DNA of 64,000 bases from Clostridium sp. AM49-4BH (GTDB taxonomy: Bacteria; Bacillota; Clostridia; Lachnospirales; Lachnospiraceae), in assembly GCF_003478335.1 (NCBI RefSeq), contig NZ_QUFB01000011.1, positions 1-64,000 on the forward strand, read 5' to 3'. A program made the translations under genes and the position numbers. Under the pieces are notes generated by a model. The model searched no databases. It was not told where the DNA came from and was given only the letters and a program-made list of their open reading frames with translations. Each line of letters opens with the position of its first letter. Position 1 is the stretch's first letter. Positions 337-18,796 of this stretch are shown piece by piece.

Positions 337-882
337 TTACTGTTCTAATTGTCTTCCCAAAAAACCTGCTGCCACGCGAGCTAATTTGTGCTCCGTATCT
401 CCCAAAGACACCTCTTTGCTGCGTGTAAATATTACAACGGCCCCTATCGCATCTCCTTCTGATATGATTGGACAGATCACTTCCCATGCAAAGTTCTCAG
501 GCTCATCACACACTTTTCGATACTCTTTGCCTGCTCCGGAGGCGACCACACTCTCTCTTCTGTCGATCATACGCTCCAAATCCCTGCTGACTGCTTTATC
601 TAACAGCAATTTTTTCGTGCCTGATGATGCAGCTATGATATGCTCCCGGTCCGTCACCGCAACTTGATGTCCCGTTGTCTGCGCTAATGCATCTGCATAC
701 TGCTGTGCTAATATTCCCATATCCTCCATCATGGAATATTTCTTTAATATCACTTCGCCTTCTCTGTCTGTATAAATTTCTAACGGGTCTCCTTCACGGA
801 TACGCAAAGTACGACGAATTTCCTTCGGTATTACGACTCGTCCCAGATCGTCAATTTTTCTGATTATTCCTGTTGCTTTCAC
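337..882 (-). CDS. spoVT: Stage V sporulation protein T (AbrB-family regulator)
   Basis: SpoVT is a forespore transcription factor that tunes sigma-G-dependent genes and spore germination. The N-terminus (KATGIIRKIDDLGRVVIPKE) is the swapped-hairpin AbrB DNA-binding domain; the remaining ~125 residues form the GAF-like domain typical of SpoVT. I chose the GTG at 882, giving 181 residues, because GGAGG at 891-895 sits 8 bases before it and homologues begin at the equivalent M-K-A-T-G. An ATG at 903 lies upstream of this ribosome binding site. A sigma-G-like promoter (953-982) fits its known control. Family and role are very secure. Confidence 0.96.
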   Translation of the reverse strand: MKATGIIRKIDDLGRVVIPKEIRRTLRIREGDPLEIYTDREGEVILKKYSMMEDMGILAQQYADALAQTTGHQVAVTDREHIIAASSGTKKLLLDKAVSRDLERMIDRRESVVASGAGKEYRKVCDEPENFAWEVICPIISEGDAIGAVVIFTRSKEVSLGDTEHKLARVAAGFLGRQLEQ

Positions 883-952
883 CAATGTTTCCTCCAATTC
901 CATATTTTAGCAATAACAAATTGTCATTTTTGCTGCATATTCACTTTGGAGT

Positions 953-982
953 TAGTATGTGGAAATCCGGAAAAATTATACA
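953..982 (-). promoter_or_regulatory. Sigma-G-type promoter of spoVT
   Basis: On the minus strand TGTATA (977-982) is followed after 17 bases by CATACTA (953-959). This matches the sigma-F/G consensus (gHATR-N17/18-CATWHTA). It lies about 70 bases before the chosen spoVT start, a gene known to be sigma-G dependent in Bacillus. Confidence 0.7.
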
Positions 983-1002
983 ACCGAGATCTCACCTGCT
1001 GA

Positions 1003-2007
1003 TTACTGTACTTTTTTATCAAGTGGATACATATTGGTGCTTAAATATTTCATTCCGTTATCTGCCAAAATAACAACAATATTTTTGCCGGCATTTTCCG
1101 GTCTTTGGGCAACAATAGTTGCTGCGTGCAGTGCTGCACCGGCAGACTGTCCCAAAAACACACCATCCGTCTGTGCAATTTCGCGGCCAAGAGCATACGC
1201 ATCTTCGCCTTTGACATCAATATATTCATCGTAATCAAATCCGACAATAAATGGTGCCTTTGCAGCATCCGGGAAACCCGGATCGCCAAATGGCGCAATG
1301 CCGTCAATGGTCTGCGGATCTTCGGAACCACCAGGTCTTGAGGTCGGATCTGCCTGTACGGCAACAATTTTAACATCCGGATTTTTTTCACGGAAATATT
1401 TAGTAAGTCCGGTAATTGTTCCTGCAGTTCCACTGGTTGCTACTAAAATATCTACTTTGCCATCTGTATCTTCCCAGATCTCCGGTCCGGTTGTCGCATA
1501 ATGAACTCCCGGATTGGCCTCATTGGCCAACTGGTTAATGAAATAATGATGCGTTGGCTGAGCATCGCAATATTTCTGGATCGCTTCCTGATAAAATCCT
1601 GTTGTGAATGTTCCGTTCGCAAAGGCTTCCGGCACGCCCGGCACATCAAACATGCTCTTTAAGTCAGCGCCATATGCACGCAGCATCTTTTGGCGTTCTT
1701 CGGACTGGCCCGGCTCCAAAAATACCGTCAGCTTGTAACCACGGCTTGCAGAAAATGCAGCCAACCCAATTCCGGTATTTCCAGAGGTGTTTTCTACGAT
1801 CGTATCTCCCGGGTGAAGAATACCATCTTCCTCTGCCTTTTTGATCATGTTAAGAGCGGCGCGGTCCTTGATGGAACCCGATGGATTAAAATACTCCAAT
1901 TTTCCCAGCAAATGTGCTTTGATATCGTGTTTTTCCTCAAACTTTTCAAACTCAAATAACGGTGTGCGTCCTACTAATTCTTCAATATTTTTTACAATCT
2001 TTGCCAT
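1003..2007 (-). CDS. cysK: Cysteine synthase-like PLP enzyme (divergent CysK paralogue)
   Basis: This is a fold-type II PLP enzyme of the O-acetylserine sulfhydrylase family, which makes cysteine from O-acetylserine and sulfide through an aminoacrylate intermediate. Visible are the PLP lysine (Lys47 in NPSGSIKDR), the substrate loop TSGNTG (residues 74-79) and a glycine-rich phosphate loop. It is not canonical: the usual PETMS motif reads EPGQS, the GTGGT loop reads SGTAGT, the GISSG motif reads GQSAG, and about 20 extra residues lie around 110-145. It starts 31 bases after the LanC-like gene and is probably co-transcribed with it. Substrate could be O-acetylserine or another activated serine/homoserine or a thiol; the family is secure, the exact reaction is not. 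Confidence 0.88.
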   Translation of the reverse strand: MAKIVKNIEELVGRTPLFEFEKFEEKHDIKAHLLGKLEYFNPSGSIKDRAALNMIKKAEEDGILHPGDTIVENTSGNTGIGLAAFSASRGYKLTVFLEPGQSEERQKMLRAYGADLKSMFDVPGVPEAFANGTFTTGFYQEAIQKYCDAQPTHHYFINQLANEANPGVHYATTGPEIWEDTDGKVDILVATSGTAGTITGLTKYFREKNPDVKIVAVQADPTSRPGGSEDPQTIDGIAPFGDPGFPDAAKAPFIVGFDYDEYIDVKGEDAYALGREIAQTDGVFLGQSAGAALHAATIVAQRPENAGKNIVVILADNGMKYLSTNMYPLDKKVQ

Positions 2008-2037
2008 AACTATTCTCGTTCCTTTCTTTTTTGCAAT

Positions 2038-3423
2038 TTACGATACATACAGATCTTGATAAGGATCTTCTAGGTATCCCGGTAAATATGTCTTATCTTC
2101 TATGTACTGCGCCAACGCCAACAACGATGCCGCGCAGCCGCCACTTCCGTGATACAGTCCCACATACGCCTCTGATCGGTCCGGTTCATGCCGGTTCCAA
2201 GACGTATACCAATTGCGCACTTTGTGCTGATAGGTCGATTCACCAATGATCGCCTCAGCCGCCTCATAGGCCGCATCCAGATATACCGAATTACCTGTCA
2301 GCTTATGTACATGCAGAAAATGTTCTAACATTCCCGCTGCACCACAGCAATAGCAATTCGTTCTCCAATAACCGTCCGAATGTTTCGTTGGCGCACCGGC
2401 TGCCAACAGACCATTAGTCAACTTAATGACAAAATCTTTATACGATTCGTCTCCGGTAATCCGATACAGTTTGTAAAACAATCTTGAGGTGCCGATCGGT
2501 CCCTGACATACTCCCAGATAATACAGGTCTGTCAGATACGTATCGTTATACTTAACCAAAGCTGCCTCGCCATCTTCGGAGTAGTCTGCAATATTTTGAA
2601 TATACTGTGCCGCTTTCTTTGCAATGTCTAAATATTCTTCCTGATGCGTCTGCTCATATACGCTTGCCAAAATATAACCACAGCCTGCAGCACCATATTC
2701 AAATCCCGGGAAATAGCCACCCGCTTTGCCAATTGTCGGAAAAGTCTCTGTATCCATTACGTACCAGCGGTATCCACCCTGCGGCGCATCTTCCTTGCGG
2801 TCTGCAATATATTTCGCTGCTTTTGCCGCGGCATCCAGATATTTATCACCGCCGAACGTATTATAAACGTCGAGCAGAAATAGGATCAAACCACCTTCGC
2901 CTAATATGCCGTAAAACCCATACCAAGTAAGTGCTCCCTGCTCGTCTTTTGCTGCCTCGATCGCATCATCGGCAACTGTCAGCGCAAACTGCTTATAACG
3001 TTCCTCTCCTGTAATTTTATAGAGTTCCTTTGCAACATAGGCACCTCCCGCCGGACCATTCAAATAACCGATGTAGGCCCCCTGCAAAAATGGTACTTCC
3101 GTCGCAAAATCCTCTTTGCCACGATATTTACGGATCACATAACGGATACCTGCCTCCGCCTTGCGTAAGTATTTCTCTTGCTCTGTCGCGACATAATATT
3201 TCAAATATAATAATGCAATTCCTGCTGCGCCCGCATACAGACTCGCATCATCTAAAAGTAAGGCATCCTTTTCCACTTGTTTGCCCGGCATGACATCCCA
3301 GCTCTCCACATCACCATCTACATGGCCATATTGTTCGATCCAATTGACCGATTCTGCTGCCGTCTGGAGAAGTCTCTGCCGATCTAACGGTGCAAATGCC
3401 TTGATCCAGTTTCTTTTACTCAT
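2038..3423 (-). CDS. Free-standing LanC-like protein with a CCG zinc motif
   Basis: The 461 residues show the repeated alpha/alpha-barrel pattern (GYLNGPAGG, GILGEGG, EYGAAGCGY, CQGPIGTS, CYCCGAAG, LYHGSGG) of the LanC/LanCL family, which in lantibiotic systems adds cysteine thiols to dehydroamino acids and in eukaryotes adds glutathione to them. Cys306 (VCQG) and Cys359-Cys360 (CCG) align with the zinc ligands C and C-H of NisC, so the site would be three-cysteine as in ProcM. The usual LanC catalytic histidine region reads EYGAAG. No dehydratase, precursor peptide or LanT is nearby; instead a LysR regulator lies upstream and a cysteine synthase homologue follows. The role is unknown; an enzyme handling dehydroalanine or cysteine adducts is an inference. 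Confidence 0.85.
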   Translation of the reverse strand: MSKRNWIKAFAPLDRQRLLQTAAESVNWIEQYGHVDGDVESWDVMPGKQVEKDALLLDDASLYAGAAGIALLYLKYYVATEQEKYLRKAEAGIRYVIRKYRGKEDFATEVPFLQGAYIGYLNGPAGGAYVAKELYKITGEERYKQFALTVADDAIEAAKDEQGALTWYGFYGILGEGGLILFLLDVYNTFGGDKYLDAAAKAAKYIADRKEDAPQGGYRWYVMDTETFPTIGKAGGYFPGFEYGAAGCGYILASVYEQTHQEEYLDIAKKAAQYIQNIADYSEDGEAALVKYNDTYLTDLYYLGVCQGPIGTSRLFYKLYRITGDESYKDFVIKLTNGLLAAGAPTKHSDGYWRTNCYCCGAAGMLEHFLHVHKLTGNSVYLDAAYEAAEAIIGESTYQHKVRNWYTSWNRHEPDRSEAYVGLYHGSGGCAASLLALAQYIEDKTYLPGYLEDPYQDLYVS

Positions 3424-3512
3424 AAGCGCTGCTCCTTTCTCCTACTATCTCTATAGGAATTATCTATATTCGAATCATACTACTCTTTTCGATCTTTGTA
3501 TAATCTCCAAAA

Positions 3513-3553
3513 AATATAACGTGTTATAGTTTTTTTCTATAACACGTTATATT
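3513..3553 (-). promoter_or_regulatory. 17-bp perfect inverted repeat (operator or terminator)
   Basis: Bases 3513-3529 and 3537-3553 are perfect inverted copies around a seven-T loop. Each arm contains the near-palindrome TATAAC-N2-GTTATA. It lies ~90 bases upstream of the LanC-like gene and ~190 after the LysR gene. It could terminate lysR transcription or be a double operator. Confidence 0.55.
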
Positions 3554-3750
3554 TACGCAACATTATTATATTTATGCGATACTGTTATACTTACGCGGTA
3601 CTCGTTATACTTACGCAGCATTATTATATTTATGCGATACTGTTATACTTACGCAGCATTATTATATTTACGCAGTACTGTTATGCTTATGCGGCATTAT
3701 TACACTTATGCGGTACTTGTTATACTTACTCGCCTTTATTATATTTACGC
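3551..3750. repeat. Tandem array of ten 19-bp units ending in the lysR stop codon
   Basis: Ten consecutive units of 19-20 bp follow the consensus AYTTAYGCRRYAYTRTTAT (starts at 3551, 3570, 3589, 3609, 3628, 3647, 3666, 3685, 3704, 3724), with a partial copy at 3743-3750 that contains the LysR stop codon. On the minus strand most junctions carry TATAAT- or TATAAC-like hexamers facing the LanC-like gene. There is no plausible coding content. Confidence 0.8.
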
Positions 3751-4656
3751 CAATACCTTATCCTTGTATTTGCTTAACTCTTCAAGGAATTTATTACCCA
3801 TTTCACTCATAACTGACGCTTTGCGCGCGATATAGCCAATGGTCATTTTCTCGTCTGTCTCCAATTTAACTGCACAAAACGCAGAACCGTTCAGTTCCTC
3901 ACAAATAATACCGGAACATAATGTATAACCATTGATTCCAACCATCAGATTAAGCATGGTCGCTCTATCATTAGCACGCACCAACTGCTTATAAGCATAG
4001 GTGCTCAGTACTTCTTCCGCATAATAAAACGAATTACTTTCTCCTTGTGCAAAGGCAAGACACGGATAATCATTCAGCCCTTCCATAGTGACGCTTGACT
4101 TGCCCGCAAGCGGATTGTTTTTACTCATGTAGGCATAAATCCCACATTCAAACAATGGTGTAAATACCAGCCCGGACTCCCGAAAAATCTTCTGCAACAC
4201 TGCCTGATTATAAGCATTCAAATAGAGCACACCTATTTCACTGATCTGATTTTTGACGTTTTCAATGACTTCATGCGTCTTCGTCTCATGGATCTCAAAC
4301 TCATACTCTTCCATGCCATACTGATCGATCACTGATACAAACGCATTCACCGCAAACGTGTAATGCTGCATAGAGACATGAAAAGTACGCTTGATATTTT
4401 TGTGCGATATATATTTAGCATCCAAAATGTCATATTGCTCGATCACTGACTTTGCATAGCCCAAAAACTCACGTCCCTTGACGGTAAGAGATATGCCGCT
4501 CTTTGTTCGTGAGAAAATTTCGAATCCAACTTCCTGTTCTAACGACTTCAAAGATGCAGTCAGGCTCGGCTGCGAAATGAACAGTTTTTTGGCAGCTTCA
4601 TTGATCGAGCTGTCTTTGGACAATTCCACAATATACTTTAATTGATTCAAGGTCAT
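3745..4656 (-). CDS. LysR-family transcriptional regulator
   Basis: The 303-residue protein has an N-terminal winged helix-turn-helix (SINEAAKKLFISQPSLTASL, about residues 17-36) and a C-terminal effector-binding domain, the standard LysR length and layout. It lies directly upstream of the LanC-like/cysteine synthase pair on the same strand. LysR proteins often control adjacent sulfur or amino-acid genes (CysB, YtlI), so control of that pair is the natural guess. Its own promoter region holds a duplicated operator-like repeat. The effector is unknown; O-acetylserine or a related metabolite is a possibility only by analogy. Confidence 0.9.
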   Translation of the reverse strand: MTLNQLKYIVELSKDSSINEAAKKLFISQPSLTASLKSLEQEVGFEIFSRTKSGISLTVKGREFLGYAKSVIEQYDILDAKYISHKNIKRTFHVSMQHYTFAVNAFVSVIDQYGMEEYEFEIHETKTHEVIENVKNQISEIGVLYLNAYNQAVLQKIFRESGLVFTPLFECGIYAYMSKNNPLAGKSSVTMEGLNDYPCLAFAQGESNSFYYAEEVLSTYAYKQLVRANDRATMLNLMVGINGYTLCSGIICEELNGSAFCAVKLETDEKMTIGYIARKASVMSEMGNKFLEELSKYKDKVLA

Positions 4657-4678
4657 CGTTCTAGTTTCCTTTATTATT

Positions 4679-4742
4679 ATGTCCCATTTTCAGGATAATT
4701 CTCTCCTATTTATGTCCCATTTTCAGGACAATTTGCTCCTAT
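4679..4742. repeat. 33-bp direct repeat with TGTCC-N8-GGACA dyads upstream of lysR
   Basis: Two copies of ATGTCCCATTTTCAGGAYAA follow each other with a 33-bp period (4679 and 4712). Each contains an inverted repeat TGTCC-N8-GGAYA. The second copy includes the stop codon of the upstream hypothetical gene. The position before lysR suggests tandem operators three helical turns apart. Confidence 0.6.
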
Positions 4743-5494
4743 ACGGAAAGATCAAATTTCTGTCCAACAGACCGGGTGGCCTCTTCTTTCACCGTATTCC
4801 AGTCAACCTTCTGTAATTTATCTAATAGCTCCTCGTAGGATGATGCCTGTACTTTTGTCTTTTTCTTCACGGTCTCTTTCTGATCGGCAGCTTTTTCCTT
4901 TTTGGCGGCTTTCTTCTTCTCTTCTGCTTTGGCATCCTTTGCATCTTCTATGCGCTCTTTCTGCTTTGCTGTAGACTTCTCCAGTTCCGCAAAGTATGAC
5001 ACTGTACCATCATCATGAAAAGCAATGCCTACTTTCACAATATCGTCATAAGATGCGCCGTTCTGACCATCTTCTGTCTCTTTGTTGGCAAGCTGTTCTT
5101 TAAGCTGCTTGAATTTCTCAAGTGCATCATTGATCATGTCGAGCCTTTCCTGCTTGTAGCTCTCATCGTTTGCCATCTTTTCCAGTTCATCGCCGGTAAA
5201 CAACGCCGAAAAATCTTTAGTTCCTGCAGACATGATCGACTGTGCTTCCTCATCACTGCTAAAATCTGCCACAAAAAAATCCATATTGGTATATTTATCT
5301 TTCAGCTCGTCTAACAACGCTTTCGCTTTAGTCGAAAGATTATCATATGTATTCGTCTTATCTGCCGCTGTACTGCTGCTTTTTTTTGCAGGGGCTGCAT
5401 TATTCTCTGCCTTTGCTGCTTTCTTATTCTGCATTGTCTTTGCCACATCATAATACTGTGCTGCTGCACCACTATTTGTCACTACCTGATTCAT
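4739..5494 (-). CDS. Hypothetical charged coiled-coil protein
   Basis: A 251-residue protein without signal peptide or membrane segment. The N-terminus is Ala/Lys/Asn-rich low complexity (~1-50), then a short folded segment (LSTKAKALLDELKDKYTNMD, about 53-72) containing MDFFVADFSSDEEA, a helical stretch, and a strongly charged Lys/Glu/Ala coiled coil (~170-215). It may belong to the DUF6033-type proteins of Lachnospiraceae, but I cannot confirm this. The start at 5494 has AGGT-like Shine-Dalgarno spacing. Function is unknown; it lies upstream of lysR with only the operator repeats between. Confidence 0.75.
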   Translation of the reverse strand: MNQVVTNSGAAAQYYDVAKTMQNKKAAKAENNAAPAKKSSSTAADKTNTYDNLSTKAKALLDELKDKYTNMDFFVADFSSDEEAQSIMSAGTKDFSALFTGDELEKMANDESYKQERLDMINDALEKFKQLKEQLANKETEDGQNGASYDDIVKVGIAFHDDGTVSYFAELEKSTAKQKERIEDAKDAKAEEKKKAAKKEKAADQKETVKKKTKVQASSYEELLDKLQKVDWNTVKEEATRSVGQKFDLSV

Positions 5495-5831
5495 ACATTA
5501 CCTCCATTTACTGTATGTCACTCTGAGTCATCTGCGCCAACGTCTCACATCTTGCACGGCATCACAATGTCCAATCGCATTATGTAATATTTCGGCTATT
5601 TAATATATCGGATAAGATTTGCTATTTCCTTACGCAATTTTCATTTGTTCCTGCGCAATGATCTTTCCATTCTGCCACAACATGATACGATCCTAAAATT
5701 AAACGATATAATCATTGTGCGTGCTTCGCAACCTATGGTATGATGAAGTTGCTGTTTTGACATATATGTTTTTATAAACATGAGTTGGTATACGCAGCAG
5801 ATAAACTATTCTAAAGAAATGGAGAAGAAAT
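5495..5831 (+). promoter_or_regulatory. Divergent intergenic region with TTGACA and an ATGTTT/AAACAT dyad
   Basis: No gene is seen. Toward the symporter, TTGTGC-N18-TATGAT lies around 5715-5744, and TTGACA (5757-5762) is followed by a perfect ATGTTT-N4-AAACAT dyad (5766-5781) without a good -10 hexamer. The dyad is a plausible operator for the symporter gene. Start of transcription is unresolved. Confidence 0.35.
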
Positions 5832-7364
5832 ATGAAATTAGCAATTTTAATCCTTTACTTTGCAGTCCTGATCGGTATCGGGCTGTATTGCAGGAAACAC
5901 ACTACTGATGTCAATGGTTTTGTATTAGGTGGTCGCTCAGTTGGTCCCTGGCTGACTGCTTTTGCCTATGGAACCTCATATTTTTCTGCCGTTGTCTTTG
6001 TCGGCTATGCCGGACAATTTGGTTGGAAATATGGTATTGCAGCGACTTGGGCCGGTATTGGAAATGCGCTGATCGGCTCGCTGTTAGCATGGGTTGTCCT
6101 AGGTCGACGCACACGAATAATGACACAGCACTTAGACTCGGCAACAATGCCACAGTTTTTTGGAGAACGTTTTAACAGCCGCGCCCTAAAGGTCGCTGCT
6201 TCCGTCATTATTTTTATCTTCCTGATCCCTTATACAGCATCTCTTTATAATGGATTATCACGTTTGTTTGGTATGGCTTTTGATATTGACTATTCCGTAT
6301 GTATCATCATTATGGCTGTACTTACCGCAATTTATGTTATTGCAGGCGGATATATGGCAACGGCGATCAATGATTTCATTCAGGGTATCATAATGTTGGT
6401 CGGCATTGTTGCGGTCATCGCTGCGGTATTGATGAGCAAGGGCGGATTTATGGCTTCCTTGAATGGTCTGGCTCAGATAAGCGATCCGGAAGTTTCCAAA
6501 GCACCCGGCATTTTCGCCTCTTTCTTTGGTCCTGATCCACTTGGTCTTTTGTTTGTGGTTATTTTGACATCGCTCGGTACCTGGGGGCTGCCACAGATGG
6601 TACAAAAATTTTATGCCATCAAAGATGAGTCCTCGATCAAGACAGGCACTATTATTTCAACAATCTTTGCCATGATCGTCGCCGGTGGAAGTTATTTTCT
6701 CGGTGGATTTGGCCGTCTGTTCTCGGATCAGATCGACGTGGAGGCAAATGGCTTTGACTCTATTATCCCAACCATGTTATCCGGGCTGCCATCCGTGCTG
6801 ATCGCCTTAGTCGTGATCTTAGTGTTGTCTGCTTCGATGTCAACATTATCTTCGCTCGTTATTGCGTCCAGCTCTACGTTGACGATTGATTTTATCAAAG
6901 ATAATTTTGTGAAAAACATGAGTGAAAAGAAACAGGTATTACTGATCCGCGTTTTGATCGTGGTATTTATCGCAATATCTTCAGTCTTAGCTTTGATCCA
7001 GTATAAGAGCTCCGTAACATTCATTGCGCAGTTGATGGGCGTGTCTTGGGGTGCTCTTGCCGGTTCTTTCTTAGCACCATTTATGTACTCTCTGTACGTA
7101 AAATGGGTCACCAAAGCGTCCTGTTTTGTCTGCTTTATTTTTAGCTCCGTATTGATGATCGCTAATATTTTCTGCAGAGAATCTTTCCCTGTAATTATGC
7201 AGTCACCGATCAACTGTGGTGCTATCGCGATGTTGGCCGGACTTGTGATCGTGCCGGTTGTCAGTCTGTTTACTCCGAAACCGGATAAAGCAATGGTAGA
7301 CAGTACGTTTGCTTGTTATGACAAGGAGAATACAGTATCCCAAAAAACTGCGTTAGGTAAATAA
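5832..7364 (+). CDS. Sodium:solute symporter (SSS family)
   Basis: A 510-residue membrane protein with about 13 transmembrane helices and the SSS/PutP-PanF signature regions (FVLGGRSVGPWLTAFAYGTS near residues 30-49; GGYMATAINDFIQG near 168-181; LSASMSTLSSLVIASSS near 330-346). It would import an organic solute with sodium. GGAG precedes the ATG by the usual distance. The downstream amidohydrolase on the same strand, 209 bases on, may act on the imported compound. Substrate cannot be assigned; PutP-like proline, pantothenate or a carboxylate are all possible. A sodium-coupled carrier fits with the sodium-type ATP synthase in this window. Confidence 0.9.
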   Translation: MKLAILILYFAVLIGIGLYCRKHTTDVNGFVLGGRSVGPWLTAFAYGTSYFSAVVFVGYAGQFGWKYGIAATWAGIGNALIGSLLAWVVLGRRTRIMTQHLDSATMPQFFGERFNSRALKVAASVIIFIFLIPYTASLYNGLSRLFGMAFDIDYSVCIIIMAVLTAIYVIAGGYMATAINDFIQGIIMLVGIVAVIAAVLMSKGGFMASLNGLAQISDPEVSKAPGIFASFFGPDPLGLLFVVILTSLGTWGLPQMVQKFYAIKDESSIKTGTIISTIFAMIVAGGSYFLGGFGRLFSDQIDVEANGFDSIIPTMLSGLPSVLIALVVILVLSASMSTLSSLVIASSSTLTIDFIKDNFVKNMSEKKQVLLIRVLIVVFIAISSVLALIQYKSSVTFIAQLMGVSWGALAGSFLAPFMYSLYVKWVTKASCFVCFIFSSVLMIANIFCRESFPVIMQSPINCGAIAMLAGLVIVPVVSLFTPKPDKAMVDSTFACYDKENTVSQKTALGK

Positions 7365-7402
7365 TGGCAGTGGGATATTAATGGATGAATAATAAAGTTG
7401 AC

Positions 7403-7536
7403 GGCTACGGGAAATGCTATACTGGCAACCAGATACTTATTGATTTACCATAAAATTAATGGTTATGGGAAATGCTATACTGGCAACTAGATACTTATTG
7501 ATTTACCATGAAATTAATGGTTATGGAAAATGCTCT
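7403..7536. repeat. 2.3 copies of a 58-bp tandem repeat with extended -10 motifs
   Basis: Units start at 7403, 7461 and 7519 (partial) and differ at few positions. The first two copies carry TGCTATACT, an extended -10 hexamer, facing the amidohydrolase gene; in the third the hexamer is changed. They could give duplicated promoters for that gene. Confidence 0.75.
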
Positions 7537-7573
7537 CAATAGCAGTTATTATATGACAGAAAGAAGGATTGTT

Positions 7574-8395
7574 ATGATTATTGATTTTCATACACATATA
7601 TTTCCAGAAAAAATCGCCAGTCGGGCTATTGCAAGTCTGGAACAAAAAGCAAAGATGCGTGCGCACGTAAGTGGTGTTGAGGCGTCACTCCGTGCATCCA
7701 TGGATAAAAGCGGTGTTGATCTGTCTATTATTCTTCCTGTGGTTACGAATCCGCATCAATTCGAAACGGTGAATCGTGTCGCAGTGGAAACCAACGAACA
7801 CACCAAGGAAACCGGACTGTTATCGTTCGGCGGCATTCATCCGGATAATGACAATTACCGGGAAATCATTCAATTTCTTGCAGGCCATGGCTGTAAGGGG
7901 ATCAAGATCCATCCGGTGTATCAAGGTGTGGCGATTGATGATATCCGATTTTTGCGCATCATTGACTGTGCGGAAGAATACGGTTTGGTCACCATTACAC
8001 ATGCCGGATACGACATTGGTTTTCCGGGAGAAGAACAATCCCTTCCTGTACACATATGCAATATGCTAGACGAAATCAAACCGTCCCGCATGGTTCTGGC
8101 ACATATGGGCGGCTGGGGATGTTGGGATCAGGTTATGGATCGCATCATTGGACGAGATGTATATTTAGATACTGCTTTTTCAACAACTTCAGCACCCCGC
8201 GAGGGCGCGCCATTGTCCATGGATCTGTTCACGGTAATGATCCAAAAACATGGTGCTGACCGCATTGTCATGGGCAGCGATAGTCCTTGGAGCGATCAGC
8301 TAGACTCTATCAATGCTATAAAAAATTGCAATATTCCAGAAGAAAGCATAGCAAAAATTCTTGGAGATAATGCAAAGAAATTATTGCAGTTATAG
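7574..8395 (+). CDS. Amidohydrolase family 2 protein
   Basis: A 273-residue TIM-barrel metal-dependent hydrolase of the amidohydrolase-2 group (COG2159). It starts with the metal-binding HxH (FHTHIFPEK), has a second His region (GIKIHPVYQG), a third (ITHAGYD, LAHMGG) and the late Asp (MGSDSPW), so all usual metal and catalytic positions are kept. I place the start at ATG 7574, preceded by AGAAGGA five bases away; a longer frame from 7508 would add repeat-encoded residues unlike the family. Family members act as decarboxylases or hydrolases; the substrate here is unknown, perhaps the compound taken up by the preceding symporter. Confidence 0.88.
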   Translation: MIIDFHTHIFPEKIASRAIASLEQKAKMRAHVSGVEASLRASMDKSGVDLSIILPVVTNPHQFETVNRVAVETNEHTKETGLLSFGGIHPDNDNYREIIQFLAGHGCKGIKIHPVYQGVAIDDIRFLRIIDCAEEYGLVTITHAGYDIGFPGEEQSLPVHICNMLDEIKPSRMVLAHMGGWGCWDQVMDRIIGRDVYLDTAFSTTSAPREGAPLSMDLFTVMIQKHGADRIVMGSDSPWSDQLDSINAIKNCNIPEESIAKILGDNAKKLLQL

Positions 8396-8439
8396 TTGCT
8401 AGCTGCATTTTATAAAAATATTGTGAAAATATAAGTAAT

Positions 8440-8465
8440 AGGGCATATCAACTGTGATATGCCCT
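8440..8465 (+). terminator. Rho-independent terminator after the amidohydrolase
   Basis: An 11-bp perfect stem (AGGGCATATCA/TGATATGCCCT) with an ACTG loop is followed by TGCTTTT. Confidence 0.8.
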
Positions 8466-8490
8466 TGCTTTTATGCGTGTTTGTATTTGG

Positions 8491-8580
8491 TAGTTTTCTA
8501 AACATTATAACGACGTATGCTATTTGTTTATGCTTAGTTTCCTAAGCATTGTTACAGCGTATGCTGGTTATTTTATGCTT
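8491..8580. repeat. 44-bp tandem repeat overlapping the 3' end of the acyl-CoA synthetase gene
   Basis: Copies start at 8491 and 8535 (TAGTTTYCTAARCATTRTWAC and onward). The second copy runs into the stop codon of the minus-strand synthetase gene at 8573-8575. Confidence 0.65.
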
Positions 8581-10207
8581 GATTTTCCTGCGCTACCAGG
8601 CGATCTGCACCATACATTTTACGTAGTTTTGGTTTTTCAATCTTCCCGGTTGCATTTCGCGGGATCTCACTAAAGATAATTTCCTTTGGTCGCTTATATC
8701 GCGGCAATTCCATACAGAATTCTTCGATTTCCTCCTCTGTGCAGCTCATACCATCCTTTACTTCAATGATCGCTGCAGTCTTCTCCCCTAATCGACGATC
8801 CGGAAGACCGATCACCGCTACATCCTTGATCTTATCGTGTCTGCGCATGAAATCCTCAATCTGTACCGGATAAATATTCTCACCGCCACTAACGATAACA
8901 TCTTTTTTACGGTCAACTAAGAAATAAAAACCATCCTCATCCTGCATTGCCATGTCTCCGGTATACAACCAGCCATCTTTTAAGGTTTCTGCAGTTGCTT
9001 TCTCATTGTGATAATAACAGGTCATGACACCCGGACCCTTTACACATAGTTCTCCGACTTCTCCCTGCTTCACTTCTACGCCCTGCTCATCAACAATTTT
9101 GCACTGCCATCGATATCCCGGCACACCGATTGCACCGACTTTATGTATATTTTCAACACCAAGATGCACACAACCCGGTCCTGTCGACTCGGACAAACCG
9201 TAATTGGTATCATATGCATGATTCGGAAAATATTCTTTCCAACGTTTGATCAAGGAAGGTGGCACCGGCTGAGCACCAATATGCATCAAGCGCCACTGCG
9301 ATAACTCATAATCTTCCAGCTTCAGATCTCCACGATCCAGCGCATCCAAGATATCCTGAGCCCATGGTACTAACAGCCAGACAATCGTACACTTTTCGCT
9401 AGAAACGGCAGATAAGATCGTATCCGGCTTCGTTCCTTTTAATAGCACCGCCTTGCTGCCTGCAACCAAACTTCCCATCCAATGGAACTTGGCTCCGGTA
9501 TGATATAATGGCGGAATACACAAAAATACGTCATCTCTGCCTGTACTATGATGTTTTTGTTCCATTTCAGCGGCCTGCGTCAAGCTCTGATGTTTGTGTA
9601 AGATCGCCTTTGGAAAACCTGTTGTTCCCGAAGAAAAGTAGATTGCTCCATAATCATCTTCTGTCAGCGGGATATCAGGTGTTTTACTGGAACAATCCGC
9701 AACAAGTTCATGATAACTCTCTGCAAAGTCCGGACAGCCGTCCCCAACATAGATCAATAGTCTTCCTTTACTCAGCTTTTCTGCATTTGCCTCGATCCGT
9801 CCGATAAACGCAGGCCCGAATACGATTATATCCACTTCGGCAAGCTCTGCACAATATAAGATCTCCTCTGCATCATAGCGAAAGTTAAACGGCACTGCTA
9901 TTGCTCCTGATTTGAGCACTCCAAAATAAATAGGCAGCCATTCCAAGCAATTATACATCAGAATTGCTACTTTATCGCCCTTTTTTATTCCTCGACTAAG
10001 CAGCAGGTTTGCAAAACGGTTTGCCTTTTCGTTAAATACCCCCCAAGTAATTTCACGTCGATACGGTTCGAAACGAGATGGCTGGATCAATTCATACTCT
10101 TTCCAACTCGTTCTCCTTGTATCTTTTTCATCCGGATTCAATTCCACCAACGCAACTTCATTCGGATATAGTTTTGCATTTCTTTCCAAAAAATCTGTAA
10201 CAGGCAT
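8573..10207 (-). CDS. Acyl-CoA synthetase / AMP-dependent ligase
   Basis: A 544-residue ANL-superfamily enzyme that activates a carboxylic acid with ATP and joins it to CoA. Motifs are complete: the P-loop-like YFSSGTTGFPKA (about 192-203), the adenine-binding YGLSEST, GELCVKGPG, the hinge region YTGDMAMQDEDGFYFLVDRKKD, and the C-terminal catalytic lysine in GKIEKPKLR. Length is normal for fatty-acid or aromatic-acid CoA ligases. It is alone between a terminator upstream (10270-10295) and convergent DNA. The acid substrate cannot be told from the sequence; medium-chain fatty acids or aryl acids are likely candidates. Confidence 0.9.
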   Translation of the reverse strand: MPVTDFLERNAKLYPNEVALVELNPDEKDTRRTSWKEYELIQPSRFEPYRREITWGVFNEKANRFANLLLSRGIKKGDKVAILMYNCLEWLPIYFGVLKSGAIAVPFNFRYDAEEILYCAELAEVDIIVFGPAFIGRIEANAEKLSKGRLLIYVGDGCPDFAESYHELVADCSSKTPDIPLTEDDYGAIYFSSGTTGFPKAILHKHQSLTQAAEMEQKHHSTGRDDVFLCIPPLYHTGAKFHWMGSLVAGSKAVLLKGTKPDTILSAVSSEKCTIVWLLVPWAQDILDALDRGDLKLEDYELSQWRLMHIGAQPVPPSLIKRWKEYFPNHAYDTNYGLSESTGPGCVHLGVENIHKVGAIGVPGYRWQCKIVDEQGVEVKQGEVGELCVKGPGVMTCYYHNEKATAETLKDGWLYTGDMAMQDEDGFYFLVDRKKDVIVSGGENIYPVQIEDFMRRHDKIKDVAVIGLPDRRLGEKTAAIIEVKDGMSCTEEEIEEFCMELPRYKRPKEIIFSEIPRNATGKIEKPKLRKMYGADRLVAQENQA

Positions 10208-10269
10208 CCTTTTTTCCTATCCTTTCTCCGTACTTTTTAAATATAGCATTCTCCTATCACTGAAAGAAA

Positions 10270-10295
10270 AAACCGGCACTATCACGTGCCGGTTT
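10270..10295 (-). terminator. Terminator downstream of the phosphoribosyltransferase
   Basis: A 10-bp perfect stem (AAACCGGCAC/GTGCCGGTTT) with a 6-base loop; on the minus strand a run of Ts follows at once. It separates the phosphoribosyltransferase from the acyl-CoA synthetase. Confidence 0.85.
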
Positions 10296-10307
10296 AGATT
10301 CCGTGGT

Positions 10308-10341
10308 AGTCGCCCGCAGCCATCCACTGCATCGGGTGACT
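10308..10341 (-). other. Second hairpin before the terminator, possible structured RNA
   Basis: AGTCACCCG and CGGGCGACT pair over 8 of 9 positions with an inner GCAG/CTGC stem. With the adjacent terminator it forms a compact two-hairpin module between two genes. I do not recognise a known riboswitch. Confidence 0.35.
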
Positions 10342-10357
10342 TCTCTGCTATATTGTG

Positions 10358-11005
10358 TTAAATTTTCGAATATCCATAACTGTTTACGATAGCATCCAGT
10401 TTACGTTTCTCTTTGCAGTATGGGCATTCACTTGGCAGATAATTCTTGTAACTGCCAACATCATCTACATGGTAGATTGAATGAACCGGAATACCTTCAA
10501 CCTCATCTACAGCTGTAAAGATCGCCGATACCCCCTGCACATTACCGCCATAATATCGAATTGCCTGTATGCTCTGCTCAACTGTCTGTCCGGTAGTCGC
10601 ACTTGCTAACAGTAGTACGACATGCTTGTTGGTAAGCATAGCTTCAACATTATCGCGAAATATGATCTGTCCACTCGTATTGATCTCGGGAGTAACAATA
10701 TTCACACATTCATGTGTATTCATGGACATGATCCCTGCGTCTGTAAGCTCTTCTGCCAAATATGCTCCTATAACTTCACAGCCATCCATGCACACGATGG
10801 TATCTACCGCTTTCGTATGTTTATATTCCCGCACAAATTCTTTCGCTACCAGCTGCGCTTCCGTGTGGCGACACTTTATCGGTGTGATATCAAGGTAATA
10901 GTTGATGTGTGAGTGATTGGTTGCAAAGTGACCAGGATATGCCTTCAACTCAATCTTTCGATTTGCTTTTGCCGGTATTTTAACCTGTCTGTCCAACATG
11001 CTCAT
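10358..11005 (-). CDS. Phosphoribosyltransferase-fold protein (orotate PRTase-like)
   Basis: A 215-residue protein with the type I phosphoribosyltransferase pattern: a hydrophobic strand ending in acidic residues (TIVCMDGCEVIGAYLAEEL, about 80-98) and a central strand followed by a short loop (HVVLLLASATTGQTVEQSI), where the usual PRPP loop reads ASATTG. The C-terminus has a CPYC pair (about 191-194) and may bind zinc. ATG 11005 is chosen because AAAGGAGG precedes it by 8 bases; the longer frame from 11038 includes that ribosome binding site. It follows glgP by 96 bases that contain a strong hairpin. The substrate is unknown; the altered PRPP loop leaves open a non-enzymatic or regulatory role. 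Confidence 0.8.
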   Translation of the reverse strand: MSMLDRQVKIPAKANRKIELKAYPGHFATNHSHINYYLDITPIKCRHTEAQLVAKEFVREYKHTKAVDTIVCMDGCEVIGAYLAEELTDAGIMSMNTHECVNIVTPEINTSGQIIFRDNVEAMLTNKHVVLLLASATTGQTVEQSIQAIRYYGGNVQGVSAIFTAVDEVEGIPVHSIYHVDDVGSYKNYLPSECPYCKEKRKLDAIVNSYGYSKI

Positions 11006-11042
11006 AGTCCTAACCTCCTTTATGTAGTTAATATTCATATGA

Positions 11043-11101: not shown

Positions 11102-13558
11102 TTATTCCGGTAACTCTACCGTAACTTTCTCCAAGTGCCATAACTCTGTTGCATACTCTTCAATCGTACGGTCGGAAGAGAATTTACCACTCTTAGCTGT
11201 ATTGAGAAGCGCAGACTTAGCCCATGCATCTTCATTTCTGTAAGCTGCCTCTACACGCTGCTGTGCCTCCGCATAGGAACGGAAATCCTTCAAAATAAAG
11301 TACATATCCGGACGTCCGCCGTTGCCATCGAGCAAAGAATTGTAAATATCACGGAACTCTTCCGGATTACCCGGTGCATACGTACCATCAACTAACTGTG
11401 TCAGCACGGCACGGATGTCTGAATCCATGTTGTAGATTTCTCTTGGATTGTACTCATTGTTGTGCTCATATGCAATAACCTCGTCTGAGGACAGACCAAA
11501 GATAAATGCATTTTCCTCTCCAACTTCCTCGACAATCTCTACGTTCGCTCCATCCATAGTTCCCAGTGTCAATGCACCATTTAACATAAACTTCATATTA
11601 CCGGTACCTGATGCCTCTTTACTGGCAGTGGAAATCTGCTCAGATACATCTGCAGCTGCGAAAATGATCTCTGCATTCGATACACGATAATTTTCGATAA
11701 ATACCACTTTGATCTTATCATGAATACTCTTATCATTATTTACCACATCCGCAACACTATTGATCAATTTAATGATCTGTTTTGCGACATGATAACCTGC
11801 AGACGCCTTAGCACCAAAGATAAATGTACGTGGGTAGAAATCCTTATCCGGATTTTTCTTTAACTCATTGTACAGATACATTACATGCAAAATATTTAAT
11901 AACTGTCTCTTATACTCATGCAGTCTCTTAACCTGTACATCAAAAATCGAACGTGGATTAACCTCAACTCCATTATGTTTCTTGATATACTCTGCAAGAC
12001 GTACCTTATTCTGATACTTAATGTTCATGAATTCCTTACGGCTTAATTCATCCTCTGCATATACGGCAAGATTATTAATATGAGACAGATCTGTGATCCA
12101 CTCATCACCGATCTTCTTCGTAACCCAATCAGCCAGCAACGGATTTCCATGAAGAAGGAAACGACGCTGTGTAATTCCATTGGTCTTATTGTTAAATTTC
12201 TCAGGCATCATAAGATAGAAGTCTTTTAATTCCTGATTTTTTAAGATTTCTGTATGTAATCTGGCAACACCATTAACAGAGAAACTTCCTACAATTGCCA
12301 AGTGTGCCATCTTAACCTGTCCATCATAAATGATAGCCATGCGTTCTACTTTACCGTAGTCTCCCGGATATGCAGACTGGATTTCTAAAATAAAACGACG
12401 GTTGATCTCTTCAACGATCTGATAAATTCTAGGGAGAAGACGTGAGAACAGCTCTAACGGCCATTTTTCAAGTGCTTCTGACATAATTGTATGGTTTGTA
12501 TATGCGCAGGTCTTCTTAGTGATTGCCCATGCCTCATCCCATTCCAAACTATACTGGTCCATCAATATGCGCATCAACTCTGCTACCGCAACAGTCGGAT
12601 GTGTGTCGTTCAATTGGAAACATACTTTTTCATGAATCTTACGAATGTCATCATGGTTTTCCATATATTTTGCAACTGCAAGCTGTACACTTGCGGATAC
12701 AAAGAAATACTGCTGCTTTAAGCGAAGCTCTTTACCTGCCATATGATTGTCATTTGGATAAAGCACCTCACAAATCGTACGTGCAAGATTCTCCTGCTCA
12801 ACAGCTTTCTGATAATCTCCTTTGTCAAAAGAACTCAAGTTGAATGTATCAATTGCCTCTGCATCCCATATGCGCAGCGTATTAACCACATTATTCTGAT
12901 AACCAACGATTGGCATATCATATGGTACGGCACGAACACTCTGATAATTTTCCTGAACAAACTTGTCCTTACCATTCTCATCTTTGCGGATCGCTACATA
13001 TCCACCAAACTTAACTTCTACCGCATATTCCGGACGTTTGATCTCAAATGGGTTGCCATCTTTCAACCAATCATCCGGCTTCTCAACCTGATAGCCATTC
13101 TCAATCGCCTGCTTGAACATTCCATATTTGTAACGAATTCCACAACCGTATGCAGAATATCCTAATGTTGATAATGAATCTAAGAAACAAGCGGCTAAAC
13201 GTCCCAAACCACCATTACCAAGTGCTGCATCCGGTTCCTGATCCTCGATAACATCCAAATCTAATCCCAGCTCTTCTACAGCTTCCTTAATTTCTTTATT
13301 TCCCTTCAGATTAATGATCATATTGCCAAGAGCACGTCCCATCAAAAATTCCATAGACAAATAGTATACAGTCTTGACATCCTTCTCTTCGTATGTCTTG
13401 TGCGTTGCCATCCACTGGTCAACAATAAAATCTTTTACCGCATATGAAACTGCCTGAAACAACTGTTGCTGGTCAGCTTCCTTGATTGTCTTACGAAATA
13501 AAACCTTTACGTAATCCTCAATTTCTTTTTTGAATTCTTCTTTGTTGATTTCCTTCAT
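11102..13558 (-). CDS. glgP: Glycogen/starch phosphorylase
   Basis: Glycogen phosphorylase releases glucose-1-phosphate from alpha-1,4-glucans using phosphate and PLP. The 818-residue protein has the typical length and motifs: YYLSMEFLMGR near residue 65, ALGNGGLGRLAACFLDS near 120, the HEYKRQLLN region near 560, and the PLP-lysine motif EASGTGNMKFMLNGA near 665. I start it at ATG 13558, where AGGAGG lies 10 bases upstream; an ATG at 13591 lies upstream of that site. A TTGATT-N17-TATAAT promoter precedes it. No other glycogen genes are adjacent. Confidence 0.96.
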   Translation of the reverse strand: MKEINKEEFKKEIEDYVKVLFRKTIKEADQQQLFQAVSYAVKDFIVDQWMATHKTYEEKDVKTVYYLSMEFLMGRALGNMIINLKGNKEIKEAVEELGLDLDVIEDQEPDAALGNGGLGRLAACFLDSLSTLGYSAYGCGIRYKYGMFKQAIENGYQVEKPDDWLKDGNPFEIKRPEYAVEVKFGGYVAIRKDENGKDKFVQENYQSVRAVPYDMPIVGYQNNVVNTLRIWDAEAIDTFNLSSFDKGDYQKAVEQENLARTICEVLYPNDNHMAGKELRLKQQYFFVSASVQLAVAKYMENHDDIRKIHEKVCFQLNDTHPTVAVAELMRILMDQYSLEWDEAWAITKKTCAYTNHTIMSEALEKWPLELFSRLLPRIYQIVEEINRRFILEIQSAYPGDYGKVERMAIIYDGQVKMAHLAIVGSFSVNGVARLHTEILKNQELKDFYLMMPEKFNNKTNGITQRRFLLHGNPLLADWVTKKIGDEWITDLSHINNLAVYAEDELSRKEFMNIKYQNKVRLAEYIKKHNGVEVNPRSIFDVQVKRLHEYKRQLLNILHVMYLYNELKKNPDKDFYPRTFIFGAKASAGYHVAKQIIKLINSVADVVNNDKSIHDKIKVVFIENYRVSNAEIIFAAADVSEQISTASKEASGTGNMKFMLNGALTLGTMDGANVEIVEEVGEENAFIFGLSSDEVIAYEHNNEYNPREIYNMDSDIRAVLTQLVDGTYAPGNPEEFRDIYNSLLDGNGGRPDMYFILKDFRSYAEAQQRVEAAYRNEDAWAKSALLNTAKSGKFSSDRTIEEYATELWHLEKVTVELPE

Positions 13559-13632
13559 TCTCCTAGGCCCTCCTAAAATTGCCGACGCCAAAAGAACTCC
13601 CGTCCTCCCGACACATCATGCTCCGCACGCTT

Positions 13633-13661
13633 ATTATATACTATTGTAGTGCAAAAATCAA
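13633..13661 (-). promoter_or_regulatory. Sigma-A promoter of glgP
   Basis: TTGATT (13656-13661) and TATAAT (13633-13638) are separated by 17 bases on the minus strand, about 75 bases before the glgP start. Confidence 0.65.
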
Positions 13662-13723
13662 ATTGAATATATATTCTGACCCCCGCATAAAATATCAATA
13701 ACAACGAGTAGGAGCAATTGTTT

Positions 13724-14131
13724 ATGCGACACTTCTATCGTATGATGACTGTGATCATTTTAACCTGTATTATGCTTTGCGGATGTTCTAAGGAGAACCC
13801 TCCCGACAAGATTGCAGATGCAGACTTCACGGTAATAACGGGTTCCGACATTCCAGAAGAGCTGCAAAGCCTTATCAACGAGCGCAAAAAGAATCCGTTT
13901 TCACTTACTTTCACCGATCAATCTTACCTTTATGTTGTCAGAGGCTATGGCAAGCAGTCTTGTGGCGGCTATAAGATCACGGTAAATGATTTTTGCAAGC
14001 GAGAGGATGGACTGTATTTTGATACCGAATTATTCGGTCCCAAAAGCGACAATCCTGATGAGCGCAGTTCCTATCCTTATATTGTTATCAAAACAGAATA
14101 TGTCGACCTGCCGGTCAGTTTTTCAAAATAG
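13724..14131 (+). CDS. Lipoprotein with PrcB-like domain
   Basis: A 135-residue exported lipoprotein. The N-terminal hydrophobic segment ends in a lipobox (IMLCGCS; Cys near residue 21). The rest resembles the PrcB C-terminal domain: a beta-rich segment with YLYVVRGYGKQSCGGYKI (about 70-87) and a late YPYIVIKTEY. PrcB in Treponema is an accessory lipoprotein of a protease; in Firmicutes the domain appears in stand-alone lipoproteins of unknown function. ATG 13724 has AGGAG nine bases upstream, better than TTG 13718. It converges on the Tad operon with only 9 bases between stop codons. Confidence 0.75.
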   Translation: MRHFYRMMTVIILTCIMLCGCSKENPPDKIADADFTVITGSDIPEELQSLINERKKNPFSLTFTDQSYLYVVRGYGKQSCGGYKITVNDFCKREDGLYFDTELFGPKSDNPDERSSYPYIVIKTEYVDLPVSFSK

Positions 14132-14140
14132 TTAACATCG

Positions 14141-15076
14141 TCAACAGATGTCGTATGTTATATCTGCAAACGAAATGAGATCTCCGGGATTACATGTTGT
14201 TCTGACATGTGGCATAAGTTGCTCTCCGTTTAAGAAGGTTCCGTTTGCAGAGTCACAGTCTTCAATCTGTATTTGATCGTCATCAATATACAAGACTGCA
14301 TGTTCTCTGCTAATATAATCTATCGGAATGCAAACATCCTCTGTCTGTAGACGTCCTATGTGCACCTCCGATTTTAACAGCGATATAACAGCAGGCACAC
14401 ATATACTCTGCAGGGTCTGTTGTGGTAAAGCCCGCTTTCCGTGAAGGGATAGCTGCAATTTACTATCAGCTTTCGGCTGCAAGGTTCGAGACACATCTTT
14501 TGGCTGTTTCGTCTGTTCCTGCGATACGCTCTGCTGTCGTATTATATGCTCTGCCAATTCTGCCATGGTGCATCTCCGTTCACAAACCATATCATACAAG
14601 CCATAAAAAGAGGCTGTGGCAGTTCTGTTTGAGTGCAATATCCGTTTCATTAAAAATTCCATGACGGCTCGCACTCCCTCTGCGATCTCCACATCATGAT
14701 CCGGATGGTAACAGAGCCATATTCTGCTGTTGTCCCGACTTAAAAATACCATTTGTTCATTTAATACAAACTGTTCTGCCGATAAAAAATACTGCTCTGC
14801 CCCCTGTACTGTCTGCAGCAATGAAAGCAGGATCTTCAACGCCTTGTCCACAGATAAGCCGGCTTCTGCATACACCGATTCCAGCGTTTGCATTTTATTT
14901 ACTTCATAGTAGACATGCAGCCTTTCATCAATGTACTGCTGGCTTATGGGCAGAACACCCCGAATCTGGTTGTACTGCATCATCTTGAATCCGATATCTC
15001 CTGACCATCGCAGTGCAGTTTCTTCGTCTGCTGCAATGGTAACATACTTTCCGGTACCCTGTTCAATCTCTATCAT
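14141..15076 (-). CDS. FHA-domain protein of the Tad operon
   Basis: A 311-residue protein, last gene of the Tad operon. The N-terminal ~170 residues resemble the DUF6382-type domain often fused to FHA in Clostridia; a polar linker follows; the C-terminal ~75 residues form a forkhead-associated domain with the key HIGR, SREH and NGTFLNG motifs, so it should bind phosphothreonine. No membrane segment is seen. It overlaps the upstream TadE-like gene by 14 bases, implying translational coupling. A role in assembling or regulating the pilus machine through a Ser/Thr kinase is an inference. Confidence 0.85.
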   Translation of the reverse strand: MIEIEQGTGKYVTIAADEETALRWSGDIGFKMMQYNQIRGVLPISQQYIDERLHVYYEVNKMQTLESVYAEAGLSVDKALKILLSLLQTVQGAEQYFLSAEQFVLNEQMVFLSRDNSRIWLCYHPDHDVEIAEGVRAVMEFLMKRILHSNRTATASFYGLYDMVCERRCTMAELAEHIIRQQSVSQEQTKQPKDVSRTLQPKADSKLQLSLHGKRALPQQTLQSICVPAVISLLKSEVHIGRLQTEDVCIPIDYISREHAVLYIDDDQIQIEDCDSANGTFLNGEQLMPHVRTTCNPGDLISFADITYDIC

Positions 15077-15482
15077 CAGATTCTCCTTTCCGGCGAAATC
15101 GTACTATGTCCGATGGCTGCTGTTCATCCCATTCCAAACAATACACGGAATTTTGGCTATCAGCAAAAAAGATTGCTGTAAGATCATTCTGCCATACAGA
15201 TTCCAACTTTGCCTGCCCTCGCCACACCGTCCTTTTGTGGGAAATTGCTGTTTCCGTCACATTCCCCATCCAGAGATTTTGCTGCAAAGTGCGCTTCCAC
15301 TCCTCGTTAGTTGGCAATTCCTCTCCAGTATCACTGTATTGTATCAATCCGTTCTGTATATTTGCCTGCAGAACACACTGATCATGCACCCAAAATAATG
15401 CGTATAATAATACAAATACGACACCTAATACTATCGGGATGACAAATGCTGCTTCAACTGTATAACTTCCTTTCCACCTCAT
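15063..15482 (-). CDS. TadE-like minor pseudopilin
   Basis: A 139-residue protein beginning with the TadE signature (GSYTVEAAFVIPIVLGVVFV): short basic leader, Thr-Val-Glu-Ala, then a single transmembrane helix and an extracytoplasmic domain. TadE-type pseudopilins are processed by the prepilin peptidase and join pilus assembly. It overlaps the prepilin peptidase gene by 4 bases and the FHA gene by 14. Confidence 0.85.
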   Translation of the reverse strand: MRWKGSYTVEAAFVIPIVLGVVFVLLYALFWVHDQCVLQANIQNGLIQYSDTGEELPTNEEWKRTLQQNLWMGNVTETAISHKRTVWRGQAKLESVWQNDLTAIFFADSQNSVYCLEWDEQQPSDIVRFRRKGESDDRD

Positions 15483-16636: not shown

Positions 16637-16668
16637 CCAAATTACCACCTGCCTTTCCCAACAGATTT

Positions 16669-16795
16669 GCAAAAAGTCGAGCAGGACATCCTCTGACATT
16701 AGGTTATGCAAAAGAGAGTCTGACCTATGATAAAGATTTTAATTCTTAGATTGTAAGCGCAGAAATGCCAGAGAACATCCTGCTCGACTTTTTGC
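16669..16795. repeat. 26-bp inverted repeat in the Tad operon
   Basis: Arms 16669-16694 and 16770-16795 match at 23 of 26 positions, 18 of them contiguous (GCAAAAAGTCGAGCAGGA), with ~75 bases between. In the operon mRNA it would form a long stem between the DUF5702 and TadE-like genes. It may be a small mobile or inverted-repeat remnant or a processing stem. Confidence 0.75.
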
Positions 16796-16815
16796 TGTAA
16801 CAAACAGCACTTCTA

Positions 16816-18781: not shown

Positions 18782-18796
18782 ATTCTTTCCTTTCTG

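Follow-up and report, generated by a model that had tools for sequence, protein, structure and literature searches.

The stretch analysed here is a 64,000-nucleotide piece of the genome of the gut bacterium Clostridium sp. AM49-4BH (contig NZ_QUFB01000011.1, positions 1 to 64,000), referred to below as the window. Near its start lies a gene for a LanC-like protein; next on that strand, after a gap of 30 nt, comes a gene for a CysK-like enzyme dependent on pyridoxal phosphate (PLP). We examined the residues, partners and relatives of this pair and favour a role in sulfur assimilation. The relevant features are as follows.

1003..2007, minus strand: CysK-like PLP enzyme of 334 amino acids (aa), partner of the LanC-like protein (PF00291; LanC-linked CysK subfamily)
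2038..3423, minus strand: LanC-like protein of the window type (LanC1), 461 aa (open reading frame (ORF) and PF05147)
2344..2349, minus strand: codons of Cys359-Cys360, the second and third putative zinc ligands (most LanC proteins have Cys-His here), aligned with Cys-His of YCHG in a LanM
2503..2505, minus strand: codon of Gln307, at the enolate-helper position (LanCL1 His277/NisC Tyr285) by alignment to the LanM
2506..2508, minus strand: codon of Cys306, putative zinc ligand 1, aligned with Cys of WCHG in the LanM of L086
2695..2697, minus strand: codon of Tyr243, at the position of the catalytic-acid His (LanCL1 His219, NisC His212), aligned with His of GHG
3745..4656, minus strand: LysR-family regulator, upstream of the LanC gene on the same strand (PF00126/PF03466)

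The window LanC matched PF05147 (LANC_like) over residues 59-442 with 99.5 bits (gathering cut-off 23.2). A LanC-type (alpha/alpha) toroid fold was assigned with confidence, and LanCL1 and LanCL2 were full-length fold matches. HMMER profile alignments to LanCL chains slipped between repeats, and residue equivalences were therefore taken from hhalign, which matched the family profile to a relative's LanM (L086) over its cyclase domain (probability 96, E 2e-9). Residues were counted in 99 of 114 sequences (82 close and 17 distant, the window included), limited to those of 415-550 aa; P0002, P0036, P0091 and P0110 were left out. The initial annotation had placed a three-cysteine zinc site at Cys306, Cys359 and Cys360. 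The LanM alignment agrees with this placement, and the residues are kept in 82, 82 and 81 of the 82 close sequences, respectively. Likewise, none of the 54 LanC rows taken from the window and from genomic loci lacks the triad (two genes are counted twice). The 26 loci obtained in a contig scan were retrieved with patterns containing YCCG or FPGF(E/F)YG, so that motif conservation there is partly preselected; a profile-based family search, free of such preselection, gave the triad in 25 of 25 rows. In structural terms, the zinc site is predicted from residues that align within a confidently assigned LanC fold.

The proton-handling part of the active site presented a different picture. The motif EYGAAG, taken in the initial annotation for the catalytic His region, does align with GHG, but the His itself is replaced by Tyr243. 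This position is Tyr in 80 of the close sequences and His in 2 (P0086 and P0087), and Gln307 is kept in all 82. Among the 17 distant homologues, His occurs at the acid position in 11 and at the Gln307 position in 14, and of the 54 LanC rows, 28 have Tyr at the acid position, 17 have His, 8 carry some other residue and 1 lacks the position. According to PMC9934072 (cited, like the other papers below, for part of its text), the general acid is His219 in LanCL1 and His212 in NisC, the enolate helper is His277 or Tyr285, respectively, with Lys or Asn in some LanMs, and replacing the acid His was detrimental to several LanC enzymes and eliminated the retro reaction. The window protein has Tyr243 in place of the general-acid His of thia-Michael LanC/LanCL enzymes, and Gln307 where the same source leads one to expect His, Tyr, Lys or Asn beside the first zinc Cys. 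In the window type, the predicted thiolate-binding positions are retained and both presumed proton-handling residues are replaced. Across the 82 close sequences, conservation is complete or almost complete at many positions in addition to the zinc ligands.

The precedent invoked for a three-cysteine site proved sound, as the portion of PMC13060382 consulted describes three Cys zinc ligands in the ProcM clade. The likeness to the cyclase domains of ProcM-clade LanMs lies in these Cys residues at the zinc-ligand positions; unlike them, the window LanC lacks a dehydratase domain, carries Tyr at the acid-His position and has no known precursor. Compared with LanCL1 and LanCL2, the third ligand is Cys instead of His, Tyr243 stands at His219, Gln307 stands at His277, and the protein is paired with a CysK. 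It differs from the class I cyclases NisC and MadC in the third ligand and the catalytic residues, and in that no lantibiotic enzyme genes were found beside it in the ORFs searched (see below).

We then turn to the partner gene, in which the initial annotation had correctly recognized a cysteine synthase homologue. Of the 26 contig-scan loci, many of them interrupted by contig ends, 18 are in records titled Lachnospiraceae or Clostridiales and the rest include Butyrivibrio and one Bacteroides sp. (L017). In 14 of them, LanC has CysK as its immediate same-strand neighbour, and in 22 a CysK is present anywhere in the locus. Taking into account that a rough expectation, assuming four CysK-like genes among 2500, is about 0.3% per locus, the adjacency is not due to chance. 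In seven relatives (L003, L006, L007, L010, L011, L014 and L023), the nearest CysK found lies 6-7 kb from LanC. A second sample comprised 397 genomes from the family of G013 (inferred to be Lachnospiraceae). With a LanC threshold of E <= 1e-30, a homologue was present in 20 genomes, with an adjoining CysK in 17 of the 20 genomes and 19 of 28 loci; when five genomes shared with the first set were excluded, the pair was found in 13 of 15. Loci L027-L031 hold the same genes as L012, L004, L013, L021 and L019, and L047 overlaps L053. An absence of the adjacency from all relatives, named at the outset as a result that would count against the pairing, is thus not what we observed. A spread beyond the family was not supported, as a phylum sample matched in 1 of 398 genomes, namely G013 itself. 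For a distant LanC encoded on a Mesobacillus plasmid, with CHG and CCG motifs, a 19-kb stretch yielded no CysK-like match.

The window CysK-like protein matched PF00291 with 219 bits. It resembles CysK/O-acetylserine sulfhydrylase in its PALP domain and its SIKDR and SGNTG motifs (NTSGNTG in the window protein), but scores below the NCBIfam cut-offs for cysK (262.9 versus 350.95 bits) and cysKM (284.5 versus 344.15 bits). LanC-linked CysKs have motifs of their own (FINQ, GTAGT, TIDG and GQSAGA) and a clade of their own. The CysKs adjoining LanC in 14 relatives' loci are 74-88% identical to that of the window in 10 cases and 42-52% in 4. A tree was built with FastTree and midpoint-rooted, its clades being read without branch support values; 30 of 47 CysK-matching places gave loci, of which the 15 whose flanks lack LanC were included. 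One clade holds 28 of 31 LanC-adjacent CysKs together with L054, whose CysK sits 788 nt from LanC, and L083, which comes from the LanC-positive genome G068. The other three LanC-adjacent CysKs (L024, L044 and L046) form a separate branch, and the branch neighbouring the LanC-linked clade consists of 12 CysKs with nitrogenase-like genes in their flanks. The best matches to the window CysK (E <= 3.6e-100) fell in 12 places in the 397 family genomes, 11 of them in LanC-positive genomes and the remaining one in G117, which is MarD-positive. At E <= 1e-82, a CysK match was found in 39 family genomes, with LanC in 16, MarD in 22 and neither in 8. LanC and CysK tree distances were correlated (r = 0.69, n = 31 after dropping a canonical CysK 194 nt from LanC in L037), a value matched by 0 of 5000 permutations and to which shared host ancestry contributes.

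Several irregular arrangements were seen in the family. In L020 and L026, LanC is just 47-48% identical to that of the window while the adjoining CysK is 86-88% identical, which suggests exchange of one partner gene or unequal rates. Two different LanC paralogues lie side by side with one CysK in L017, L024 and L047/L053, the acid position of the second paralogue being occupied by Cys, Phe or His. A LanC with a fused C-terminal GNAT acetyltransferase domain is encoded at L008:10001-11869 (protein P0036 has the same residue at 615 of 622 positions), and GNAT genes stand immediately upstream of LanC in L003 and L011; the fusion hints at acylation of an amino-thioether intermediate. P0106, a distant CCG-type LanC homologue whose name assigns it to Thermoanaerobaculia, has an N-terminus resembling, by eye, a twin-arginine export signal. 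An apparent LanC-CysK fusion, P0090 (330 aa, PF00291 and PF05147), was rejected. It joins a LanC N-terminus to a CysK C-terminus at a shared PGF, which points to an internal deletion or an assembly chimera, and it merely agrees with the gene order.

Genes of sulfur metabolism surround the pair in many relatives. Nitrogenase-like subunit genes occur in 10 of the 26 loci, and these or another non-CysK sulfur gene in 18. Examples of gene order are NifS-MnmA-Rrf2-MetY-LanC-CysK (L002), NifS-NifU-LanC-CysK-PatB (L009), MnmA-LanC-CysK-PatB-MetB-LysR-importer (L013) and NifB-NifX-NifH-CysK-MarD-like-K-...-LanC-CysK (L005). Representatives of the PatB C-S lyase, MetY, NifH, NifS, NifU and MnmA scored above NCBIfam curated cut-offs, and Pfam analysis of further neighbours gave Rrf2, Cys/Met PLP enzyme and aminotransferase-fold domains.

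One of the nitrogenase-like genes could be assigned more closely. The subunit encoded at L005:3536-5002 had 9FMG (1.1e-87) and 9D9U (4.8e-87) as best matches, followed by 9P1X (5.2e-35). In the part of PMC12552129 used here, 9FMG is the methylthio-alkane reductase (MAR) subunit MarD, with cluster ligands Cys270 and His429. The L005 subunit, the only one examined in this respect, has Cys and His at these positions as counted along the alignment. MarD-like matches (E <= 1e-40) were present in 18 of the 26 LanC1 genomes, the best match in each being at least 83% identical, versus 45 of 397 in the family sample. Within that sample, they occurred in 8 of 20 LanC-positive and 37 of 377 LanC-negative genomes (Fisher p 0.0007, kinship ignored). 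In G013, LanC lies about 14 kb from MarD on the same contig. Eight loci (L003, L005, L006, L007, L010, L011, L014 and L016) contain MAR-like clusters with NifB-, NifX- and NifH-type genes, in which a CysK is placed between NifH and the D subunit; a second D/K-type pair is present in 6 of the 8. With its NifB-, NifX- and NifH-type genes and MarD-like subunit, this arrangement resembles MarBHDK of R. rubrum (PMC12552129, in part). Some LanC loci near importer and cysteine-desulfurase genes recall IsrBHDK, the nitrogenase-like isethionate system for sulfonate assimilation, which adjoins such genes according to the portion of PMC11423573 consulted. The relatives' clusters differ from both in the added CysK between NifH and D, in the mostly present second D/K-type pair, and in LanC. 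The words 'lanthionine' and 'cysteine synthase' are absent from the main text of these two papers. Among open-licence literature searched by title and abstract, with subscription papers outside the scope, we found no description of a LanC-CysK sulfur module.

In the window itself, SpoVT and DUF6033 genes flank the LanC/CysK/LysR group. The LysR protein is 76% identical to that adjoining LanC in L004, and LysR genes are present in 9 of the 26 relatives' loci. The interval from the LysR stop to the LanC start contains a tandem array (positions 3545-3750) in which a 19-base unit (TTATACTTACGCGGCATTA) is repeated about 10.6 times; periods of 38, 58 or 77 bases can alternatively be read. The array may serve to bind a regulator, or it may have arisen by repeat expansion. 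Scanning window positions 800-5000 for promoters and terminators gave sites no commoner than in shuffled sequences. No mar genes were matched within the 64-kb window, which is a contig stretch and not the whole genome.

Thiol or organosulfur assimilation is indicated by the LanC-CysK pairing, by the existence of a separate CysK clade and by the neighbouring genes. We propose, with a probability of about 0.55, that the LanC-like and CysK-like proteins constitute a two-gene assimilation module in anaerobic Lachnospiraceae that combines a Cys3-zinc thiolate with PLP aminoacrylate chemistry. The Cys3 site would hold zinc, bind a small thiol as the activated thiolate and make or break a C-S bond, and the CysK partner would exchange a thiol at the PLP-bound aminoacrylate to give cysteine or an S-substituted cysteine. 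Under sulfur need, the module would be turned on by a LysR and, in some relatives, by a CymR-like regulator of the Rrf2 type. For the window type, to judge from its residues, a reaction in which no enolate is protonated (alkyl transfer or thioether cleavage, for example) seems more likely than standard thia-Michael addition, because Tyr and Gln replace the two proton-handling residues. Precedent for such chemistry exists in betaine-homocysteine methyltransferase, where a thiol is alkylated at a Cys3-zinc site. More specifically, and with somewhat less than even odds, LanC may act on small organosulfur molecules rather than peptides or glutathione, using its Cys3-zinc site as a thiol (alkyl) transferase or as a C-S lyase. 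In gut and rumen anaerobes it would then, together with its dedicated CysK, channel thiols liberated by a nitrogenase-like methylthio-alkane reductase to cysteine and methionine.

A number of observations weigh against this proposal. When 19 query proteins from the relatives' sulfur loci were compared with the 64-kb window (ORFs of at least 120 aa), only LanC, CysK and LysR were matched. Eight of the 26 loci have no sulfur gene beyond at most CysK, and three (L015, which ends 152 bases past LanC, L019 and L025) have none at all. MnmA and NifS double as housekeeping genes, and the representatives of CymR, NifB, NifX, MetB and SsuA/SaoX (importer) types scored below curated cut-offs. Three of the 20 LanC-positive family genomes (G019, G068 and G097) show no CysK beside LanC in short flanks. 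As for MAR, 8 of the 26 LanC1 genomes had no MarD-like match, and the presence of the gene in 37 LanC-negative genomes indicates that MAR can do without LanC. The CysKs of rumen MAR-like clusters (L003, L005-L008, L010, L011, L014 and L016) lie on another branch of the tree, which counts against a simple one-origin story. Zinc at the Cys3 site is predicted from the ligand residues. CysK can use sulfide without a zinc helper, and the step carried out by LanC is therefore not obvious. Finally, CysK-linked LanC cousins with both LanC His residues exist, and Michael-type chemistry may hence be ancestral and is conceivable for the window type too.

Such cousins bear on the alternative closest to the initial annotation, which had supposed that cysteine is added to dehydroamino acids in the manner of eukaryotic LANCL. 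On this view, damaged proteins carrying dehydroalanine or dehydrobutyrine, or else free aminoacrylate, would receive cysteine or a different low-molecular thiol from the enzyme. The full-length fold matches to LanCL1 and LanCL2 and the retained thiolate-binding triad are consistent with this, and the case is strongest for the His-retaining cousins. For the window type it is undermined by Tyr at the acid position (80/82) and Gln at the helper position (82/82), by the deleterious effect of acid-His mutation in several LanC enzymes and the loss of the retro reaction (PMC9934072, in part), and by the sulfur-assimilation neighbours in 18 of the 26 loci. We thus regard it as unlikely.

We find it similarly improbable that LanC is a non-catalytic subunit, sensing zinc or thiols or delivering thiols, which binds and controls CysK within a sulfur regulon. 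Serine acetyltransferase and CymR are known to bind and control CysK, and the LanC-CysK pairing with its correlated divergence, as well as the missing catalytic acid of the window type, would suit such a role. The many near-invariant positions beyond the zinc ligands in the 82 sequences, however, are what an enzyme would show, and the distance of 6-7 kb to the nearest CysK found in seven relatives also argues against it.

A stand-alone lanthipeptide cyclase, whose precursor would be produced and dehydrated by genes at another place in the genome, is very unlikely. The window LanC belongs to the LanC superfamily and has a ProcM-like three-Cys site, and one relative, G002, does encode a real LanM elsewhere. 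Yet the gene partner is CysK, and the protein falls far under the NCBIfam cut-offs for LanM (124 versus 304 bits), LanL (98.9 versus 650) and LanKC (97.5 versus 575). The DUF4135 domain of LanM dehydratases was detected only in G002 among the 26 LanC1 genomes; Lant_dehydr_N was found in none of the 26, a weak result since the controls gave no match either. The G002 protein (L086:964-4050) is a LanM with DUF4135 and a cyclase domain with standard GHG, WCHG and YCHG motifs. As the initial annotation had stated, lantibiotic enzyme genes are missing around the window gene: neither dehydratase, synthetase nor exporter was present among 19 window ORFs (9 in 337-11038 and 10 in 11102-29228), precursors below 80 aa not being searched. 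No lanthipeptide dehydratase was recognized near LanC in the 26 relatives' loci, inspected mostly by eye and without ORFs below 90 aa. With scores below the cut-offs, no lantibiotic enzyme genes found in the ORFs scanned and DUF4135 in just one genome, a lanthipeptide locus at the window was rejected. A carbohydrate-active (alpha/alpha) toroid enzyme mistaken for LanC, suggested by weak Pfam matches to GH88, GH76 and GH127, is scarcely credible and was rejected on the fold comparison with LanCL1 and LanCL2.

The LanC fold has so far been known for lanthipeptide ring closure and for glutathione addition to dehydroamino acids. If our proposal is correct, a LanC subfamily in sulfur assimilation would represent a third physiological role, and would link the fold to the newly described nitrogenase-like enzymes that cleave C-S bonds. 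The question is readily tested, as just two genes are involved, neither of unusual size, whose metal and PLP sites are predicted. The pair points to unexplored thiol chemistry in Lachnospiraceae of the rumen and gut.
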